Below, in pieces: positions 6,680 through 20,145 of a DNA stretch of 35,526 bases. Both the position numbers and the translations under genes were made by a program. The stretch comes from Verrucomicrobiota bacterium (GTDB lineage Bacteria; Verrucomicrobiota; Kiritimatiellia; UBA8416), in the NCBI GenBank assembly GCA_018645275.1, contig JABGOW010000254.1, positions 1 to 35,526 on the forward strand, read 5' to 3'. Position 1 is the stretch's first letter. Each line of letters begins with the position of its first letter. Under the pieces are notes generated by a model that saw nothing but the letters and a program-made list of their open reading frames with translations, searched no databases and was not told the DNA's origin.

Positions 6680-9456
6680 GCCGTCAGATGCGTTCGGAAT
6701 GTCGTGGTGTCGTCGTTGCCAAAGCTTGCGGAAACAGCGCCATCGCGACTCGTCTCCAGGATGCTCAGCTCCGGCGAGATGTCTGTTAGTGTGGCAGGAT
6801 CGAACGCACGGTCCTCGTCTTCCCCCGCGATAATGAGCAGGCGCGGTTTTGCGTGTTCCACCGCAGAGCGGATCCAACTGCGGAAGCTTGAGCGCGAGCT
6901 CATGTCAGAAACCACAATCACGTCGTGGGGCGTTTGATCTGCCAGCGCTTGCTGGATTGCTGCGGTTGAGGTGTCTGTGATGATTAGCCACCGAAGGCCG
7001 TGCATCTCTGCACTGAGAAGTGTCGTACGCGCGCTGGCGGCAAAGCGCTTGGGCTTTCCTGTGAAACGGGGGAGCGCACGGAGATGTCCGTTTCTCCAGC
7101 TTGCGATTTCTCCAGTCGGGATTGCATCGGCAGGAATGCGCTCCTCTTCGAGTCGTTGCAGTAGCTCTGCGAAGGCGCTCTCGTGCTGCAGTGCCCAGCG
7201 CTCTCCGGCATCTGCCTGGCTGAGCAAATAGTCGTCGCCGACGGCTTCGAGAAAGCGCTGGCCGGGCTGTGGCAGAGCGGGTAGCAGACATGCTTCGACG
7301 CGCATCTTCCCCGTTAGAGAGGCTCCCCCCTCAAGCCCAGCCTTTGGATCTGCGCTACAGAGCACAAGCGTTCTGACACGAGATGCGCCCTGCGTGCGCA
7401 GCGCATCAAACAGCAGGCGCTCTCCCGTGAGCTTGGAGCCAGCATTGATTACGGTCGCACTACCGTCGGATGCGGTCAGTGCGACGATGGCATGCCGGCC
7501 GGATGCGAGGCACTGGACCCCCGTGCAGTCGGCTCTGCCGGGGAGGCAATTCCAGAGCGGGACGGCGGTCAAGATAAGCGGCAGAATCCAGAGCAAGTGA
7601 CGCCTTCCCTGGCTGGATGCACTCGCGGAAGAGCGACGATACACCATGGACAGCAGAGGAACACGATAGAAATCAGCCAGAAGCAGGAGAGCGACGGCGC
7701 CGTAGTACGCTGCAATCCATGTGCCGCTGGGGCGTGGGGTTGCCGGGAACGGAAACCAGGTTGCACCCGCATGTGCCAGTCGGAAGAATCCTTCCCCGAC
7801 AAGCGTGGAGGCAGCTCCGAAGGGAATCGCTACGAGGTGTCCCACCACGGGCAGCAGGCCAAGGAGTCCCGTCAGCATACCCAGCTGCACGAGAATGCCA
7901 ATCGCTGGGATGGCAAGCAGGTTGATGAGTATGCCTGCGACAGGAAACTGACCGAAAAACCATGCCGACATGGGAACCATCATGCCGATCTGAATGGCGA
8001 GCTGTGCGCCAAAGAACATCCGTAGCGTGGCGGGAATGCGCTCAAGCCCAAACCGCCACATTTTCGGCCAGCGGTGATTCAAGGCACTGCCGATTCGGGT
8101 GAATAGCCATAGTAGCCCGACAAGCCCCAGCAGATTTCTTGGGTCGACAAGCAGGTGGAACCGGCTTGTTGCCAAGGTCATGAGAAGGGAGAACCACACC
8201 AGGAAGAATAATAGGGAGAAGCCGCGGAATGTTCGTAGCCACCGGTCCATCGGTGTCGCCAGCAGCACGAGAGAGAGCACCGCTCCGTAGGAGAGCAGAA
8301 AGCTGGGGGCGTAGAGCACTGCGGGCGTGCGCAGTAGAATCAGGAATGAGGAGAGGGAGAGCCCTATGGCTGTTGCCCGCCTCAGTCCGCACCGAAAATA
8401 GGCAAGCGAGATGAGCACAACGGAGTTCATGATGACGGCACGCATGCTTGAGGGGCGGGCCCCCGTGAGAAGCGCGAAGAGGATTAGAAACAGAATGAGC
8501 GCGGGAACGAACACGCGCACACGAACCCCGGCCATGCGGAAGAGAGAGTACAACAGAACGGTGACCACGCTGACGTGAAGTCCGGACACAGCCAGAACAT
8601 GGCCGACTCCGGCGTGGCGGAACGTCTTGGCAATATCGAGCCCGCCGTAGGTGACATTCTCGACTGCGCGCCGCGTTCCGAGTGTTGCAGCAGACACGAG
8701 CCGACTGGCCGGGCCTCGAATTGTCTGCTTGTAGGTCCTCAGGAAGTCGGCCTTGGCGAGGAGTGCGACCTCGGTGAATAGGTTACCGCGGCTGCGCTCG
8801 AGAATCTCCACCCGGCCAATGTGGCACGACAGCCGCGCAACAAGCCCGTCGCGGCGAAGAAAGGCCCCGTAGTCGAACTCCCCCGGGTTCTTCGCGGCCG
8901 ATACGGACTGATATCGCGAGCTGAGCTCGACGCGATACCCGTAGCTCTCGGGGGCTGCAATTTCGTGGAGTCTTGCCATCGTTGCGGCAGATCCCGAACG
9001 CTGCGCATAGACACGGACTAGCAGGTTCTCTGGGGACACCGTCTGCCATTCTGCGTCTGCATCCGCGAGGATTTCGTCGACGCGGATCCGTACGTCAACT
9101 TGCCCGGCTTTGCGTAGTTCCGCCTCGTGACAGATGTTCCCGCGGATGGAAAGTGCCGTGCCGTCCTCAAGCTGCTCAAGCGCGTGACGGAGGGTTCCAC
9201 TCTGCGGTGAGCTCAGGAGCGCAGCTGTTCGCCAGTATCCAAGCGGAAAGGCGCAGATGAATGCGGTGACTAGGACTGCCGCGACAGGCCATTCGTGCCA
9301 GCGCCTTTCCGCGAGAACTTCGTACACGAGGACGGCGGCGGCAGCGAGGCCGACGGTCACGAGCAGAGCGGGGGGTAGCGTCCATTGTGTGATCGTCGCG
9401 AGGACAATGCCGCCGATTAGCCCCAGAGAGAGCCCAATTGTTCGTATTGCCATCAC
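6652..9456 (-). CDS. comEC: ComEC/Rec2-family DNA uptake channel with C-terminal degenerate MBL-like domain
   Basis: HAGVGHVLAVSGLHVSVVTVLLYSL, GARPSSMRAVIM competence motifs, multiple TMs; C-terminal VQCLASGRHAIVAL..VLCSADPKAGLEGG. Confidence 0.9.
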   Translation of the reverse strand: MMAIRTIGLSLGLIGGIVLATITQWTLPPALLVTVGLAAAAVLVYEVLAERRWHEWPVAAVLVTAFICAFPLGYWRTAALLSSPQSGTLRHALEQLEDGTALSIRGNICHEAELRKAGQVDVRIRVDEILADADAEWQTVSPENLLVRVYAQRSGSAATMARLHEIAAPESYGYRVELSSRYQSVSAAKNPGEFDYGAFLRRDGLVARLSCHIGRVEILERSRGNLFTEVALLAKADFLRTYKQTIRGPASRLVSAATLGTRRAVENVTYGGLDIAKTFRHAGVGHVLAVSGLHVSVVTVLLYSLFRMAGVRVRVFVPALILFLILFALLTGARPSSMRAVIMNSVVLISLAYFRCGLRRATAIGLSLSSFLILLRTPAVLYAPSFLLSYGAVLSLVLLATPMDRWLRTFRGFSLLFFLVWFSLLMTLATSRFHLLVDPRNLLGLVGLLWLFTRIGSALNHRWPKMWRFGLERIPATLRMFFGAQLAIQIGMMVPMSAWFFGQFPVAGILINLLAIPAIGILVQLGMLTGLLGLLPVVGHLVAIPFGAASTLVGEGFFRLAHAGATWFPFPATPRPSGTWIAAYYGAVALLLLADFYRVPLLSMVYRRSSASASSQGRRHLLWILPLILTAVPLWNCLPGRADCTGVQCLASGRHAIVALTASDGSATVINAGSKLTGERLLFDALRTQGASRVRTLVLCSADPKAGLEGGASLTGKMRVEACLLPALPQPGQRFLEAVGDDYLLSQADAGERWALQHESAFAELLQRLEEERIPADAIPTGEIASWRNGHLRALPRFTGKPKRFAASARTTLLSAEMHGLRWLIITDTSTAAIQQALADQTPHDVIVVSDMSSRSSFRSWIRSAVEHAKPRLLIIAGEDEDRAFDPATLTDISPELSILETSRDGAVSASFGNDDTTTFRTHLTAQELRLRPL

Positions 9457-11312
9457 GGTGCCGTCTCCTCCATGAGGCTGGGGGCTTTCTCGACCTTAAT
9501 CTGCGGGAAGAAATCTCGGTTGGACTCCAGCACGGTGGTACGGCGGAATGAGGGGAAGGCAAGGGCGAGTAGTGTGCCAAGCCCGAGCGCGAGGAGTAGG
9601 ACGATAACGGCATCCTTTCGCCCCCGCTTCCAGCCCTGGTTGCCTGCGACGGAGATGTCTTCTACTGCCGCCACCGTGTGACCGCTGTCCGCCAGTCGCG
9701 TTGCGAGGTAGCGGGAGAATTTCTGAAAGTTCGTAGCCCTCACGCGACCGATGAGTCTTGTGGGATAGTGGGGGTTTGCATCCGGACGACATACGGCTGC
9801 TCCAGCGTGACCGCCGTCGGCTTCGGTTCCCAGCGTCGGCATCATCGCCCCCAGGTTGAGTGTCGTGTCGGCATGATCCAGTCGCCTCGCGACCATGAGC
9901 GATGAACCGAAACAGTAAAAGACATAGTGCGCGTCTGGAAATCGACGACCGAAGAACTCAATCGCTTTTCCGGTTGGCATGCGCGGTTTCCCGGGCGCCG
10001 AATGGGTCGCAAGCGCGGTTATGATCTGTGTTCCGTGCTCGGCCAACGTGATACGGCCCATGTTCTCTGCAAGCGTTTCCGCCGTTTCTGCCAGGTCGTC
10101 GTGCCACTGTTGCGGCAGATCAGCCCAGCCGCGCGTCGCGAGTTTTTCTGCGGCGTCATCGGAGGCCATGGCGTCTACCAGAATCTGGGCAAGCTCAGTC
10201 TTACAGATGCCGCCCTTGATTAGGTCTGTGAGCAGGATGCCAAGTTTGGTGCGATTCGTGACGAAATCCTCACCATGCGCCGCCTCACGCAGTCGTTTGG
10301 CTCCACTGCAGTCCCACGGCTTGCCGGCAACGGTGTTGAGGTAGACCATGTCTGCGGCACATTTTGCCTCTTCCTCCTCCGTCAACTCGGAGCCCTGCAG
10401 GGGGCCGGAAAGCTCAAGAAACCCAATGGTGCCGGACTTGACCATAGCCCCAAGGGATTCTTCTCGCTCCGCAAGGTAGGGATGATGGTCCTCGTAGCGC
10501 GCCGTGCAAACGTCCTGTCCGTGGAGGTACTGTAGGTCCGCCTCAAGATCCGGAAATGCCCCTACTGGCAGGTCGGCTGCGTAGAGTTCGGCGGGTGCGA
10601 AACGGCGCATCTGCTTCAGGGATTCGTGATAGTTAACGAACACGAAGGAGTAGTCTTGCCCATACTGCAGAGATCGTCCCTCTTCACGGGCCTGGCAAGT
10701 CATCCAGTAGGCATAGAGGGATGCGCTCGCGACGGTATCGAGATCACCGCCTGTCTCGTGCATTTCACGGATGAGCTCCAGTAGCGGCAGCAGACTCTCA
10801 TTCAAGCCCGCTTCGGCGGAATATAGGTCAATCTGTGAGCGGGCGTCGGTCTCTGTTTGCTGCTGACCGTTCTTGCCACCCCATGCTTCCTGAAGCCTGC
10901 GTACAACCCCCATGATGGGTGCCAGTAGAATCTCGGCATTCTGCTTGAGCTGGTTGGCGCGCTTGCGGCGGGTCGATGGCGAAATGGGGAGTCCGAGCCG
11001 GGAGAAATCCTGGCGCAGGCGAGCTTCCGAAAAGCTCGCGTAGGCTGTCCCTGTCACCGTTGACGGCGGTGTCGTGCTGCAGGCGAGAAAGTGACTCAGT
11101 GTGAGCTGCTGCAATGCCCGGATGTTCTGATCTGGCTCTTGGACATTGAGGAGATGACGAATCATCGTTGCCACACGTCGGGGAACCATGAATGCGCCGT
11201 CTTCCCAGTAACACTCGAAACTCAGAAGATCACCAATCTGATTAACGGCATCTGCATAGGTACCACCCCAGCCGTGTATGATGATCAGTCGCTGTCGTCG
11301 GTTCGCCCCCAT
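9453..11312 (-). CDS. Hypothetical protein, C-terminal TM anchor, DHHA1-like GGHAGAA motif; translationally coupled to comEC
   Basis: 619-aa ORF, AAGGAG before ATG; 4-bp stop/start overlap with comEC; TM segment DAVIVLLLALGLGTLLALAF. Confidence 0.8.
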   Translation of the reverse strand: MGANRRQRLIIIHGWGGTYADAVNQIGDLLSFECYWEDGAFMVPRRVATMIRHLLNVQEPDQNIRALQQLTLSHFLACSTTPPSTVTGTAYASFSEARLRQDFSRLGLPISPSTRRKRANQLKQNAEILLAPIMGVVRRLQEAWGGKNGQQQTETDARSQIDLYSAEAGLNESLLPLLELIREMHETGGDLDTVASASLYAYWMTCQAREEGRSLQYGQDYSFVFVNYHESLKQMRRFAPAELYAADLPVGAFPDLEADLQYLHGQDVCTARYEDHHPYLAEREESLGAMVKSGTIGFLELSGPLQGSELTEEEEAKCAADMVYLNTVAGKPWDCSGAKRLREAAHGEDFVTNRTKLGILLTDLIKGGICKTELAQILVDAMASDDAAEKLATRGWADLPQQWHDDLAETAETLAENMGRITLAEHGTQIITALATHSAPGKPRMPTGKAIEFFGRRFPDAHYVFYCFGSSLMVARRLDHADTTLNLGAMMPTLGTEADGGHAGAAVCRPDANPHYPTRLIGRVRATNFQKFSRYLATRLADSGHTVAAVEDISVAGNQGWKRGRKDAVIVLLLALGLGTLLALAFPSFRRTTVLESNRDFFPQIKVEKAPSLMEETAP

Positions 11313-14920: not shown

Positions 14921-16570
14921 CTACTTTCCAGCCATCATAGCTTCAACGTCTGCCTTGACCTCGCCGGTGGGCTTGATGTCGAAGTTCTCGACCAGCACTT
15001 TGGCTACGTTTGGCGACAGGAATGCCGGCAGCGTGGGTCCGAGCCGAATCCCTTTGACGCCAAGGTGGAGCAATGCCAGCAAGACGCAGACAGCCTTCTG
15101 TTCGTACCAGGCGATATCAAACGAGATCGGAAGATCATTGATGTCGTCCAGGCCAAAGACCTCCTGCAGTTTCAAGGCAATCACAGCCAATGAGTAGCTG
15201 TCGTTGCACTGACCGGCGTCCAGGACGCGGGGAATTCCGCCAATGTCACCGAGATTGAGTTTGTTGTAGCGGTACTTAGCACAACCTGCGGTGAGGATGA
15301 TGGCATCCTGCGGGAGTTCCTCAGCAACCTCTGTGAAGTATGAACGTCCCTGCTGGCGTCCGTCACAGCCTGCCATGACGATGAATCGTTTGACGGCACC
15401 GCTCTTGACGGCATCGACAACCTTGTCGGCCAGCGCCATGACCTGGTTGTGGGCAAATCCACCCACAATCGTTCCGGTTTCCAGCTCTGTGGGTGGCTCG
15501 CAGTTCTTTGCCTGCTCAATGATTGCAGAGAAGTCCTTCGCTCCGCCCTCGGGACGATCCGGGACGTGCGTTACGCCTGGATAGCCTGCCTGGCCTGTGG
15601 TGTAGATGCGCGCTCTGTAGGCATCCTGCACTGGCGTAATGCAGTTCGTGGTCATTAGGATAGGGCCATTGAAGGATGCAAACTCCTTGTTCTGCGCCCA
15701 CCACGAACTCCCGTAGTTCCCCACGAAGTGTTCGTACTTCTTGAATGCAGGATAGTAGTTTGCCGGAAGCATTTCGCTGTGCGTGTAGACGTCGACCCCT
15801 GTCCCCTCGGTCTGTGCCAACAGCTCTTCCATGTCCTTCATGTCGTGGCCGGAGATCAGAATTGCAGGGTTGCCACGTGTGCCGATGTTGACTTCGGTGA
15901 GCTCCGGGTTTCCATAGGCGGTTGTATTGGCGGTATCAAGAAGCGCCATCGTTGTGACTGCGACCTCTCCGCACTTGAGGACTTCGCCAACCATTTCGTC
16001 GACACTCAGATCGCGCGTTGTGGTCGCAAGTGCATGAATGACGCTCTCGTAGATGGTCGGGTCTTCGGACCCCAGGGCCGCGGCGTGTTCACCATAGGCG
16101 GCGACGCCTTTCAGTCCGTAGATCAGCAACTCTCGCAGGGAGCGCACGTCTTCGTTCTCTGTAGCCAGGACGCCGACGGTCTCCGCTTTGGCGGCGTACT
16201 CGCTCGTGCTGGCCGGCGTCCACGTTGCGGCATCGGGAAGCACGGCATCGCCCATTCCGCCAGCGCTCTCAACGGCCGCCTTGAGTGCATCCCGCACCTG
16301 GAGAGACTCGGTGATCAACGCCGTGATACGGGCATCGTCGAAGTTTGCGTTCGTAATAGTCACAAACAGGTTCTTACATACGAACAGGCCCGTGTTTTTG
16401 TCCAGGATACCGAGCTCGGCAGCCTTTTCGCCGTAGACGGAGATCCCTCTCAGCACGTGGATCAACAGGTCCTGCAGGTTTGCCGTTTCGGGGCCCTTTC
16501 CGCAGACCCCGCTATTTGCGCATCCAGCGTTGCCCGCCGTTTCCTGACATTGGTAACAGAACATACTCAT
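14921..16570 (-). CDS. hcp: Hydroxylamine reductase / hybrid cluster protein
   Basis: [26 protein letters not shown]-terminal cluster motif; 549 aa with typical Hcp motifs ([27 protein letters not shown]). Confidence 0.97.
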
Positions 16571-16983: not shown

Positions 16984-17796
16984 CTAGGCGCCAATCGTTT
17001 GCGAACTCAGAATGTCTCCTGTCAGGCCGACGGTGACTTCTTCCACGACCAGGTCGTTGCGGCCGCTGCGTTGCAACGCCTCCTTGGCCATCATAGAGAG
17101 TCCGCCGCAACAGGGGACCTCCATACGAACCACGATTGCTTTCGGGATGGTTGTATTCTGGAGTATTCCGGTGAGCTTGTCGACGTAGGGATCGGTGTTG
17201 TCCAGTTTCGGGCATGCCACAACGACGCTACGGCCGCGAAGGAAGCGCCAGTGAACGTCGGCTGACGCAACGGGCGCACAGGTGCTCAGTATAACCAGCT
17301 CTTTGTTGTCGAAGAATGGGGCGCCCGGCTGAACAAGGTGCAGTTGCACAGGCCACTGCTCCAGATCGGAACGAACCATCTGCCCGCCCTGCGTCGCCGC
17401 GGTTGTGGGTACTGCAGCCGCGACTTTGGCGCTTGGCATGCGCATGCGTGTTCCGGGGCAGCCGCCCTGGGGAGCTGTCGGCGTCGTCGGGTGTTCTCCG
17501 CGATCATGTGCCTCATTTGCTGAGTCCATGCGGCGGACGGCCTCTTCGCCTTGCGTGATGTAGAGATTCTGTCGTGTTGCTTCGACGTCAAACTCCTCAG
17601 ATTCTCGCTCGATAATAGTCAGGGCTCCTGTTGGGCAGGTTCCGATGCAGTCTCCGAATCCATCGCAGAACTGTTCCTTCACCAAACGGGCTTTCCCGTC
17701 TACCAGTTGCAGCGCTCCTTCGGCACATCCCGTGATGCAATTGCCACAACCATTGCACTTCGCCTCGTCTATTTCGATGATCTTGCGCTTCGCCAT
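16984..17796 (-). CDS. 4Fe-4S ferredoxin-domain protein, likely part of the hcp operon
   Basis: CNGCGNCITGCAEGA and CDGFGDCIGTCPTGA clusters; additional C-terminal Cys (VPCCGG). Confidence 0.9.
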   Translation of the reverse strand: MAKRKIIEIDEAKCNGCGNCITGCAEGALQLVDGKARLVKEQFCDGFGDCIGTCPTGALTIIERESEEFDVEATRQNLYITQGEEAVRRMDSANEAHDRGEHPTTPTAPQGGCPGTRMRMPSAKVAAAVPTTAATQGGQMVRSDLEQWPVQLHLVQPGAPFFDNKELVILSTCAPVASADVHWRFLRGRSVVVACPKLDNTDPYVDKLTGILQNTTIPKAIVVRMEVPCCGGLSMMAKEALQRSGRNDLVVEEVTVGLTGDILSSQTIGA

Positions 17797-17869
17797 TGTA
17801 TATGCTCCTGTGATAGGGTCTTCTCGTTTCAACTGGGGACGACTATACGCGGTGCCACATGATCGTACC

Positions 17870-17883
17870 TTGACCTAAGTCAA
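17870..17883. promoter_or_regulatory. FNR/HcpR-type operator TTGACctaaGTCAA
   Basis: Perfect 5-bp half-sites with 4-bp spacer; centre at -41.5 from the TSS inferred from minus-strand -10 TATAGT (17847-17842). Confidence 0.7.
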
Positions 17884-17916: not shown

Positions 17917-18621
17917 ATGAAGATTCAGACCACATCAGTTGGAGAGCGGGTTAGGATTCTCCGCCTTGCCCCCATTTTTGCAGGGCTTGCGGATGCGGGG
18001 GTGCAGGCGTTGTCCGAGGTTAGTACGGTGCGGGAGTATGAGGAAGGGGAGTATCTCTTCCAGCAGGATGAGCAGGCCGAGGGATTCCACGTGGTTGTGG
18101 AGGGCGCTGTCAACGTGCACCGCTTCGGACCAGACGGTCGGCAGCAGATTCTGCATGTATTCGAAGGCGGTGGCGAATTGTGCGGAGAGGTCCCCGTTTT
18201 CGAGGGGTCGACCTATCCGGCCGCTGCTGTCGCCACCGCGCGCTCCCGGACGCTATACCTGCCGCGCCTGGCGCTGCTTGAGGTCGCGCGCCAACATCCC
18301 GAGATTCTGCTGAAGATCCTGGCCACGCTCTCGTTGCGACTGCGTCGTTTCGTGGGGCTGATTGATGATCTCTCGCTCAAGGATGTCTCGGCTCGTCTTG
18401 CAAAGTACCTGCTGGATCTTTCAGAGAAGGCGGCCTCCGAGACGATTGTCCTCGATACAACCAAAGTGGTTCTCGCGGCTCGCCTTGGTACCATTGCCGA
18501 GACGATCAGTCGGACCTTTCGAAAACTCCAGGGGAGTGAAGTTATTGACGTTCGGGGACGAGAGATTACCATTCTTGATGAAGACCGGTTGCAGGACATC
18601 GCAGCCGGCATGAAATCGTAG
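17917..18621 (+). CDS. Crp/Fnr-family transcriptional regulator (HcpR-like by context)
   Basis: Cyclic-nucleotide-binding fold and HTH with ETISR recognition-helix signature; divergent from hcp operon. Confidence 0.92.
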   Translation: MKIQTTSVGERVRILRLAPIFAGLADAGVQALSEVSTVREYEEGEYLFQQDEQAEGFHVVVEGAVNVHRFGPDGRQQILHVFEGGGELCGEVPVFEGSTYPAAAVATARSRTLYLPRLALLEVARQHPEILLKILATLSLRLRRFVGLIDDLSLKDVSARLAKYLLDLSEKAASETIVLDTTKVVLAARLGTIAETISRTFRKLQGSEVIDVRGREITILDEDRLQDIAAGMKS

Positions 18622-18629
18622 GGGGCACC

Positions 18630-19241
18630 ATCAGCACACCACGCATTGGCATTCTGGGGGGATCATTTAACCCCGTGCACATGGGGCACCTGCTGCTGGC
18701 GCAGAGCGCTCTTGAAGCCTTTGACCTTTCGAAGGTGCTCTTTATGCCGTGCTACATTCAGCCTCACAAGGATCCCACGATGTTGGCCTCTCCAGAGCAC
18801 CGAATGGCGATGCTTGAGCAAGCCCTGATGGACAACATGCAGTTTGAGGTGTTGGACATCGAGATCGTCCGGGGGGGGACTTCCTATGCTGTGGACTCGG
18901 TGCGGGAGATCAGCAAGCTGTATCCGGAAGCCGAGCTCTTCTTCATTATTGGGGCGGACACCCTGACGGAGCTACACCTCTGGCATGATATCTACGCATT
19001 GCTGGAAATGTGCAGTTTCGCAACATTCTCTCGGCCCGGCCTGGATGTCATGAGCCTGGCCGAGGAGGATCTGCACTTAGATCCACCGTGGCCACCGCGC
19101 CTCCTTGATATGGTGGCGAGGGGACGTATGCTTGAGATTTCATCATCGGACATTAGACACAGAGTTGCCGAAGGCATGAGTATTCGGTATCTTGTACCCC
19201 CACTGGTGGAAATGTATGTTGCCGAACACCATCTTTATTGA
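18630..19241 (+). CDS. nadD: Nicotinate-nucleotide adenylyltransferase, apparent ATC start
   Basis: ISTPRIGILGGSFNPVHMGHLLLAQ nucleotidyltransferase motif lies upstream of the first ATG (18675); ISSSDIRHRVAEGMSIRYLVP C-terminal motif; GGGGG 4 nt before ATC. Confidence 0.88.
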   Translation: MSTPRIGILGGSFNPVHMGHLLLAQSALEAFDLSKVLFMPCYIQPHKDPTMLASPEHRMAMLEQALMDNMQFEVLDIEIVRGGTSYAVDSVREISKLYPEAELFFIIGADTLTELHLWHDIYALLEMCSFATFSRPGLDVMSLAEEDLHLDPPWPPRLLDMVARGRMLEISSSDIRHRVAEGMSIRYLVPPLVEMYVAEHHLY

Positions 19242-19298
19242 TCTGAGACGGCATCGCGTGCGATGCGTCTTGGGCGTTAGACGTTACTGGAGGTTCCC

Positions 19299-19634
19299 AT
19301 CGAAGCGCTGTCATTAGCAACTCGCGTACGCGAGATTCTGGAAGACAAGAAGGCTCAGGATGTTGCCGTTCTTGATGTGCGTAAGCTGTCTACAGTCACA
19401 GACTACTATGTTGTCGTCTCAGGCATGAGTCCACCTCACCTGAAGGCCCTGTACGGAGATGTGCAGCATCAGCTCAAACAGGTTGGCATTCAGTGCTACC
19501 GTCGATCGGGCGTGCCTGATGCCGGTTGGATGGTGCTCGACTACGTTGACGTCATCATACACATATTCCTGCCGGAAGCACGTGAGTTCTACGCCATTGA
19601 GTCGTTGTGGGATCAGGCAGATCGTATTGCGTGA
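19299..19634 (+). CDS. rsfS: Ribosomal silencing factor RsfS, apparent ATC start
   Basis: (ATC)EALSLATRVREILEDKKAQDVAVLDVRKLSTVTDYYVVVSG...GWMVLDYVDVIIHIF; GGAGG 5 nt before ATC. Confidence 0.88.
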   Translation: MEALSLATRVREILEDKKAQDVAVLDVRKLSTVTDYYVVVSGMSPPHLKALYGDVQHQLKQVGIQCYRRSGVPDAGWMVLDYVDVIIHIFLPEAREFYAIESLWDQADRIA

Positions 19635-20145
19635 GCTCCTCGTCGTCTCCGAATAGATCATCGACGGCAAACCCCTCCATTTCCAGAAGTTGCCGTGCTA
19701 CCGCCTTCAGATCGCGATCGTCTGGGATCGTCGCATCTTCCGCACCGTCTTCAGCCAGCGTATCCGAGACCATGGCGACCATGGAGCTCAGCTCTGAGAT
19801 TCGCTCGGAACGTTGCCGGGCGGGAATTCCTGCTATCCACGTGGTGCCTCCCGCGATGGCCAGTAGCATTGCCGCATAGGCGGCAATGCGCGTTAACGGA
19901 ACGGGGAACCAGATGACATTGCGGCTGTGGCGATCCGCTGCGGCCTTGCGAATTTCCGCCAAGGAATCGGGGTGTGGTTCCGCGTCGGGCAAAAGGTCGC
20001 GGGCAATCTGCGCGATCTGTTCCTCTTCATGCGCGAAAGCCCTGCACGTGTCGCATGTGCTCAGGTGTTCAGCGAGAGCGTCGCGCGAGTGAGGTTCCCG
20101 GGATGCCGCCAGGAGAATTTGTTTCTGGTAATCTGTGCAGTTCAT
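19555..20145 (-). CDS. Zinc-finger-type anti-sigma factor
   Basis: LAEHLSTCDTCRAF (HxxxCxxC), single TM; immediately downstream of an ECF sigma factor. Confidence 0.8.
   Translation of the reverse strand: MNCTDYQKQILLAASREPHSRDALAEHLSTCDTCRAFAHEEEQIAQIARDLLPDAEPHPDSLAEIRKAAADRHSRNVIWFPVPLTRIAAYAAMLLAIAGGTTWIAGIPARQRSERISELSSMVAMVSDTLAEDGAEDATIPDDRDLKAVARQLLEMEGFAVDDLFGDDEELTQYDLPDPTTTQWRRTHVLPAGICV

Follow-up and report, generated by a model that had tools for sequence, protein, structure and literature searches.

AUC and AUU codons as conserved, probably attenuating starts of the ribosome silencing factor gene rsfS in a class of Kiritimatiellia-like bacteria

Introduction

Two neighbouring genes, nadD and rsfS, lack an ATG, GTG or TTG codon ahead of their conserved domains in the stretch of DNA analysed here (35,526 nucleotides, hereafter the window), and each has an ATC codon shortly after a Shine-Dalgarno (SD)-like sequence. 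This raises the question of whether these ATC codons are true starts, and what such a start would mean for either gene. Non-AUG starts are known from infC, the gene of initiation factor IF3, which begins with AUU, AUC or AUA, and to our knowledge very few bacterial genes have selected AUC, AUU or AUA starts.

Results

Two genes without a canonical start codon in the window

The nadD gene (nicotinate-nucleotide adenylyltransferase, 18630..19241; this and the following features of the two genes are on the + strand) is preceded by an in-frame TGA stop (18579..18581). No ATG, GTG or TTG occurs in the window sequence between this stop and the motif GILGGSFNPVHMGH (GILGGSFNP), which begins at 18648, and the first canonical codon is the GTG at 18675, within the active-site motif. 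The candidate start is an ATC (18630..18632), seen in this genome only, which lies 4 nt after an SD-like AGGGGG (18620..18625) that has one G-U pair with the anti-SD. Read from this ATC, NadD is a full-length family member based on its profile match (TIGR00482, 177.6 bits, cut-off 112.45).

The rsfS gene (ribosome silencing factor, 19299..19634; 111 codons from the ATC plus the stop) has its putative start at an ATC (19299..19301) located 5 nt after the SD sequence GGAGG (19289..19293; a 6-nt match, GGAGGT, by SD scoring). An in-frame TAG (19278..19280) seven codons upstream of this ATC excludes an N-terminal extension, and no ATG, GTG or TTG is found from the TAG until the GTG at 19377, 26 codons into the gene. 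The RsfS protein read from the ATC matches TIGR00090 with 105.8 bits (cut-off 56.9; positions 2-99 of the 99 in the profile) and, over its full length, PF02410 (RsfS / iojap family, 101.9 bits). The absence of canonical starts before both domains, the gaps of 4 and 5 nt between SD and ATC, and the 26 residues that a start at GTG 19377 would cost had been described in an earlier note on this DNA, and our codon scan reproduced all of them.

The source genome (4.69 Mb, 581 contigs) has a single rsfS, and a protein search gave one gene that matches the nadD of the window. The predicted RNA structure around the two window starts is no more stable than that of shuffled sequences (z 0.42 and 1.18).

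The rsfS start codon across the class

We read the rsfS start in 150 loci of the same class (taken to be Kiritimatiellia-like), most of the genomes being draft assemblies. The loci were placed by profile, and the codon nine codons before position 1 of the RsfS profile was taken as the start column. This homologous column holds ATC or ATT in 42 of the 150 loci (29 ATC and 13 ATT) and ATG in 21 other genomes of the class, as a start column would show. ATA accounts for 14% of the internal isoleucine codons, yet it is found at the start column in none of the 150 loci (p 0.002, indicative only). In 37 of the 42 ATC/ATT loci the codon is preceded by an SD match of at least 4 nt, always at a spacing of 5-8 nt; these 37 loci cover 18 of the 43 families (19 with one locus of weaker SD). 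Matches of at least 5 nt are present in 36 of the 42 ATC/ATT loci versus 12 of the 84 loci with another non-start codon at this column (Fisher p 4e-15), and the mean match is 5.26 nt for ATC/ATT rsfS versus 3.27 nt for ATG-started rsfS (p 2e-10); the loci are related by descent, and these p-values are indicative only, not true independent-sample probabilities. Few ATC/ATT codons with an SD are found in the columns adjoining the start column.

All three rsfS-carrying genomes of the window's own family have an SD-linked ATC, including G001 (GGGAGG TTGACC ATC) and G002 (AGGAGG TTGGTC ATC), whose SD-linked ATC is displaced upstream by five codons. An ATT follows GGAGGT at the rsfS of a Kiritimatiellae MAG (L055). 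In family f23 the ATC is kept in 11 of 11 genomes despite a median protein identity of 59%, and the identity among relatives is 29% (near-random) upstream of the codon versus 55% downstream. Taken together, the distance to the SD, the ATG in the same column, the contrast between upstream and downstream identity, the missing ATA and the retention of ATC in f23 indicate a start codon rather than an isoleucine codon.

Among the 37 SD-bearing loci, 21 (that of the window and 20 others of the class) lack any canonical codon back to the stop. The sole canonical codon abuts or sits inside the SD in 6 loci, and a distal canonical codon lies upstream in the other 10, mostly without an SD. The comparison with relatives thus upheld the rsfS start put forward in the earlier note, given the conserved ATC/ATT, the strong SD and the many loci without a canonical alternative. 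More than half of the class has an rsfS with ATG or another canonical start, and a tree based on RsfS only implies that the start has switched between canonical and non-canonical at least 16 times, the protein being too short to settle gain versus loss.

Codons 2 and 3 after the ATC/ATT of rsfS are strongly biased towards RAM NCN (Glu/Lys/Asp/Asn, followed by Ala/Ser/Thr/Pro), which may be a constraint of the protein or of the initiation context. Loci of family f39 (L183, L217, L218, L244, L250 and L256) encode long RsfS N-terminal extensions, and the 30 codons next to the domain contain no canonical start. Having such extensions and lacking the ATC with SD, these loci were kept apart from the ATC/ATT set.

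Controls and other lineages

Relaxed initiation throughout the genome was ruled out by rpmA, rbfA and ybeY, which lack a canonical start in 0 of 30 cases each in the relatives. The infC gene, found with a profile, starts mostly with ATT, ATC or ATA in the same genomes (GGGAGG TCGATT ATT in the source genome), so the method recovers the expected positive. Among the genes checked across these genomes, the non-canonical starts are restricted to rsfS and infC. An upstream frameshift or N-terminal fusion was also rejected, since most loci have an in-frame stop upstream of the ATC/ATT, at a distance of two to about thirty codons. Since the ATC/ATT and its SD are shared across families and the controls are canonical, the AUC/AUU start of rsfS is, as far as sequences can tell, a conserved lineage trait and not an error.

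In about 80 rsfS loci drawn almost entirely from other phyla, the start is canonical. The exception is L094 from Gemmatimonadota, with a long open N-terminus, no canonical codon nearby and no ATC/ATT with an SD. In other classes of the phylum, rsfS is canonical save for a few open N-termini and one possible ATA start: for rsfS in G222 (L261/L419), the 55 codons back as far as the stop contain no ATG, GTG or TTG, and a candidate ATA start is present at the same column after CCGGGAGAACCAAG.

Two genomes of family f23 (G037 and G053) have an apparent ATG start at infC (L151 and L157), while their rsfS keeps ATC. The two non-canonical starts thus vary independently and are not strictly tied, which argues against the rsfS codon being a side effect of IF3 autoregulation.

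A weak start codon as a proposed attenuator of rsfS

We propose, with a probability of roughly 75%, that rsfS is initiated at AUC/AUU with a strong SD as an old, selected attenuator, the likeliest further consequence being feedback by RsfS. The codon would be read by the ordinary initiator tRNA and held in place by the strong SD, and its weakness would keep the synthesis of RsfS, a 50S anti-association factor, low. We infer that translation starts at the rsfS ATC and that output is low; the AUC/AUU start is probably what keeps it so. RsfS output would further be tied to the permissiveness of initiation, through the level of IF3 and the supply of free 50S subunits. When RsfS is abundant, 50S subunits would be withheld, 30S complexes on AUC/AUU would then join them more slowly and dissociate more often than those on AUG, and the translation of rsfS would fall first. 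The result would be a negative feedback, parallel to the one by which IF3 limits infC through its AUU/AUC/AUA start. From initiation kinetics, 30S complexes on weak codons are those that depend most on fast 50S joining, and for this reason RsfS should limit its own translation before that of other genes.

Several published observations bear on these steps. RsfS is a uL14-binding protein that keeps the subunits from joining (PMC7125091), AUU and AUA starts reduce output (PMC13009471), and a GTC start is repressed by IF3 elsewhere (PMC5472188). An IF3-sensitive set of genes in the source genome is plausible, as its infC starts with ATT. Considered alone, the claim that RsfS limits its own synthesis through feedback is a tentative one, with the odds somewhat against it. 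We hold no more firmly the wider proposal that RsfS is a second anti-association factor, after IF3, behind a self-sensing non-AUG start, in which withdrawal of 50S subunits would selectively shut AUC/AUU initiation and the loop would recur through the class.

The serious rival to feedback is that the AUC/AUU start is a plain constitutive brake, low expression being sufficient and neither RsfS nor IF3 closing a loop. All of the sequence evidence for the start fits this equally well, and many members of the class have an ATG with a weaker SD, as if only net output mattered; the canonical starts in more than half of the class imply that attenuation is not indispensable in any case. However, a weak SD with AUG would do the same, and infC likewise pairs a strong SD with a weak codon, the codon itself acting there as the sensor (PMC5472188), a parallel that is only suggestive. 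We give the plain brake slightly less than an even chance.

Other readings of the two ATC codons

Alternatively, rsfS could start at a TTG or GTG next to the SD, at a codon far upstream or at a GTG within the gene, which would make the ATC an ordinary isoleucine codon. Some loci do have a distal ATG, or a TTG or GTG that precedes the ATC by two or three codons. However, an abutting TTG or GTG would have almost no spacing to the SD, which keeps its 5-8 nt from the ATC/ATT across families, the 21 loci free of canonical codons back to the stop offer no canonical start upstream, and the internal GTG of the window would remove 26 residues. We regard a start elsewhere as very unlikely.

The attenuator reading concerns rsfS, and the ATC of nadD is a separate event private to this genome: ATG may truly have changed to ATC in recent times, or the sequence may be in error here. 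The source genome is the only one to lack a canonical start among about 75 readable nadD genes, three other flagged loci being truncated or masked. The gene starts with ATG in both same-family genomes that carry nadD (G001 and G002), and with ATG, GTG or TTG in every other genome with an ATC/ATT rsfS where nadD is readable. The non-canonical codon of nadD is thus found in 1 of about 75 genes and is not conserved across species. We lean towards the ATC being the true start of nadD, and allow a sizeable, lesser chance that it is an error (G-to-C at 18632) or that the gene is arranged in another way.

The earlier note had proposed that starts be compared in relatives, and the outcome was divided, the ATC/ATT being shared for rsfS and the ATC private for nadD, where relatives have ATG. 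It had also argued that two adjacent ATC starts lessen the likelihood of error. With the nadD codon confined to one genome, where it may stem from a substitution error, neither ATC lends support to its neighbour. The earlier note further suggested a joint device in which NAD synthesis and ribosome silencing would be coupled to initiation fidelity: the genes are adjacent and both have ATC in the source genome, but nadD is canonical in all other readable genomes, those with an ATC/ATT rsfS included, and we consider such a device highly improbable. Least probable of all is that the two ATCs are ATG codons misread in sequencing or assembly. This could be so for nadD (one genome of about 75, with ATG in both same-family genomes), but for rsfS the recurrence of the codon in 18 families, in separate assemblies, excludes it.

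Comparison with known non-canonical starts

As in infC, the sequence of rsfS combines the lack of a usable ATG, GTG or TTG with an SD at a functional distance and conservation across species. Both genes encode subunit anti-association factors, and infC has a conserved AUH start with a strong SD in these same genomes. They differ in that IF3 itself discriminates the codon, a direct feedback, whereas any feedback by RsfS, whose target is the 50S subunit, would be indirect. The GTC start of sigR in Streptomyces is likewise non-canonical, lineage-conserved and preceded by an extended SD, and sigR is repressed by IF3 (PMC5472188), but gene and codon are different, and sigR has been demonstrated experimentally whereas the evidence for rsfS comes from sequence only. 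The conserved non-canonical starts of ccpN (AUA) and cvfC1 (AUU) in Staphylococcus also have extended SDs and cut output to roughly 10-30% of that of AUG (PMC13009471). In contrast to rsfS, these are Firmicutes genes found by Ribo-Ret, and they encode a metabolic regulator and a small, little-known protein, not ribosome factors. The longer SD at ATC/ATT rsfS is as in the verified non-canonical starts of S. aureus (PMC13009471). In E. coli, rsfS itself has a UUG start, weaker than AUG (PMC10917681), although UUG is a canonical alternative start and AUC and AUU are not.

We found no report of a non-canonical rsfS start in the literature (open-licence full texts). As read here, rsfS joins a small set of genes whose non-canonical starts are under selection. 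Gene callers limited to ATG, GTG and TTG are blind to AUC, AUU and AUA starts, and in these genomes the annotated RsfS N-termini are probably wrong. This case of ribosome silencing, extending through a class, is a natural set for testing start-codon strength against subunit joining, and suggests that, as a general principle, genes for factors impeding 70S formation may carry weak start codons.

Other features of the window

A 619-codon reading frame (9453-11312, - strand) without an NCBIfam match adjoins a ComEC-like gene. A weak anti-sigma-factor-like gene (19555-20145, - strand) is convergent with rsfS, and the 3' ends of the two overlap by about 80 bases. Finally, a perfect palindrome, TTGACCTAAGTCAA, is located at 17870-17883 between a CRP/FNR-family regulator gene (17917-18621, + strand) and a divergent ferredoxin-like gene (16984-17832, - strand), the latter followed by a hydroxylamine reductase/hybrid-cluster protein gene (14921-16570, - strand). 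The palindrome looks like an HcpR/FNR-type operator.
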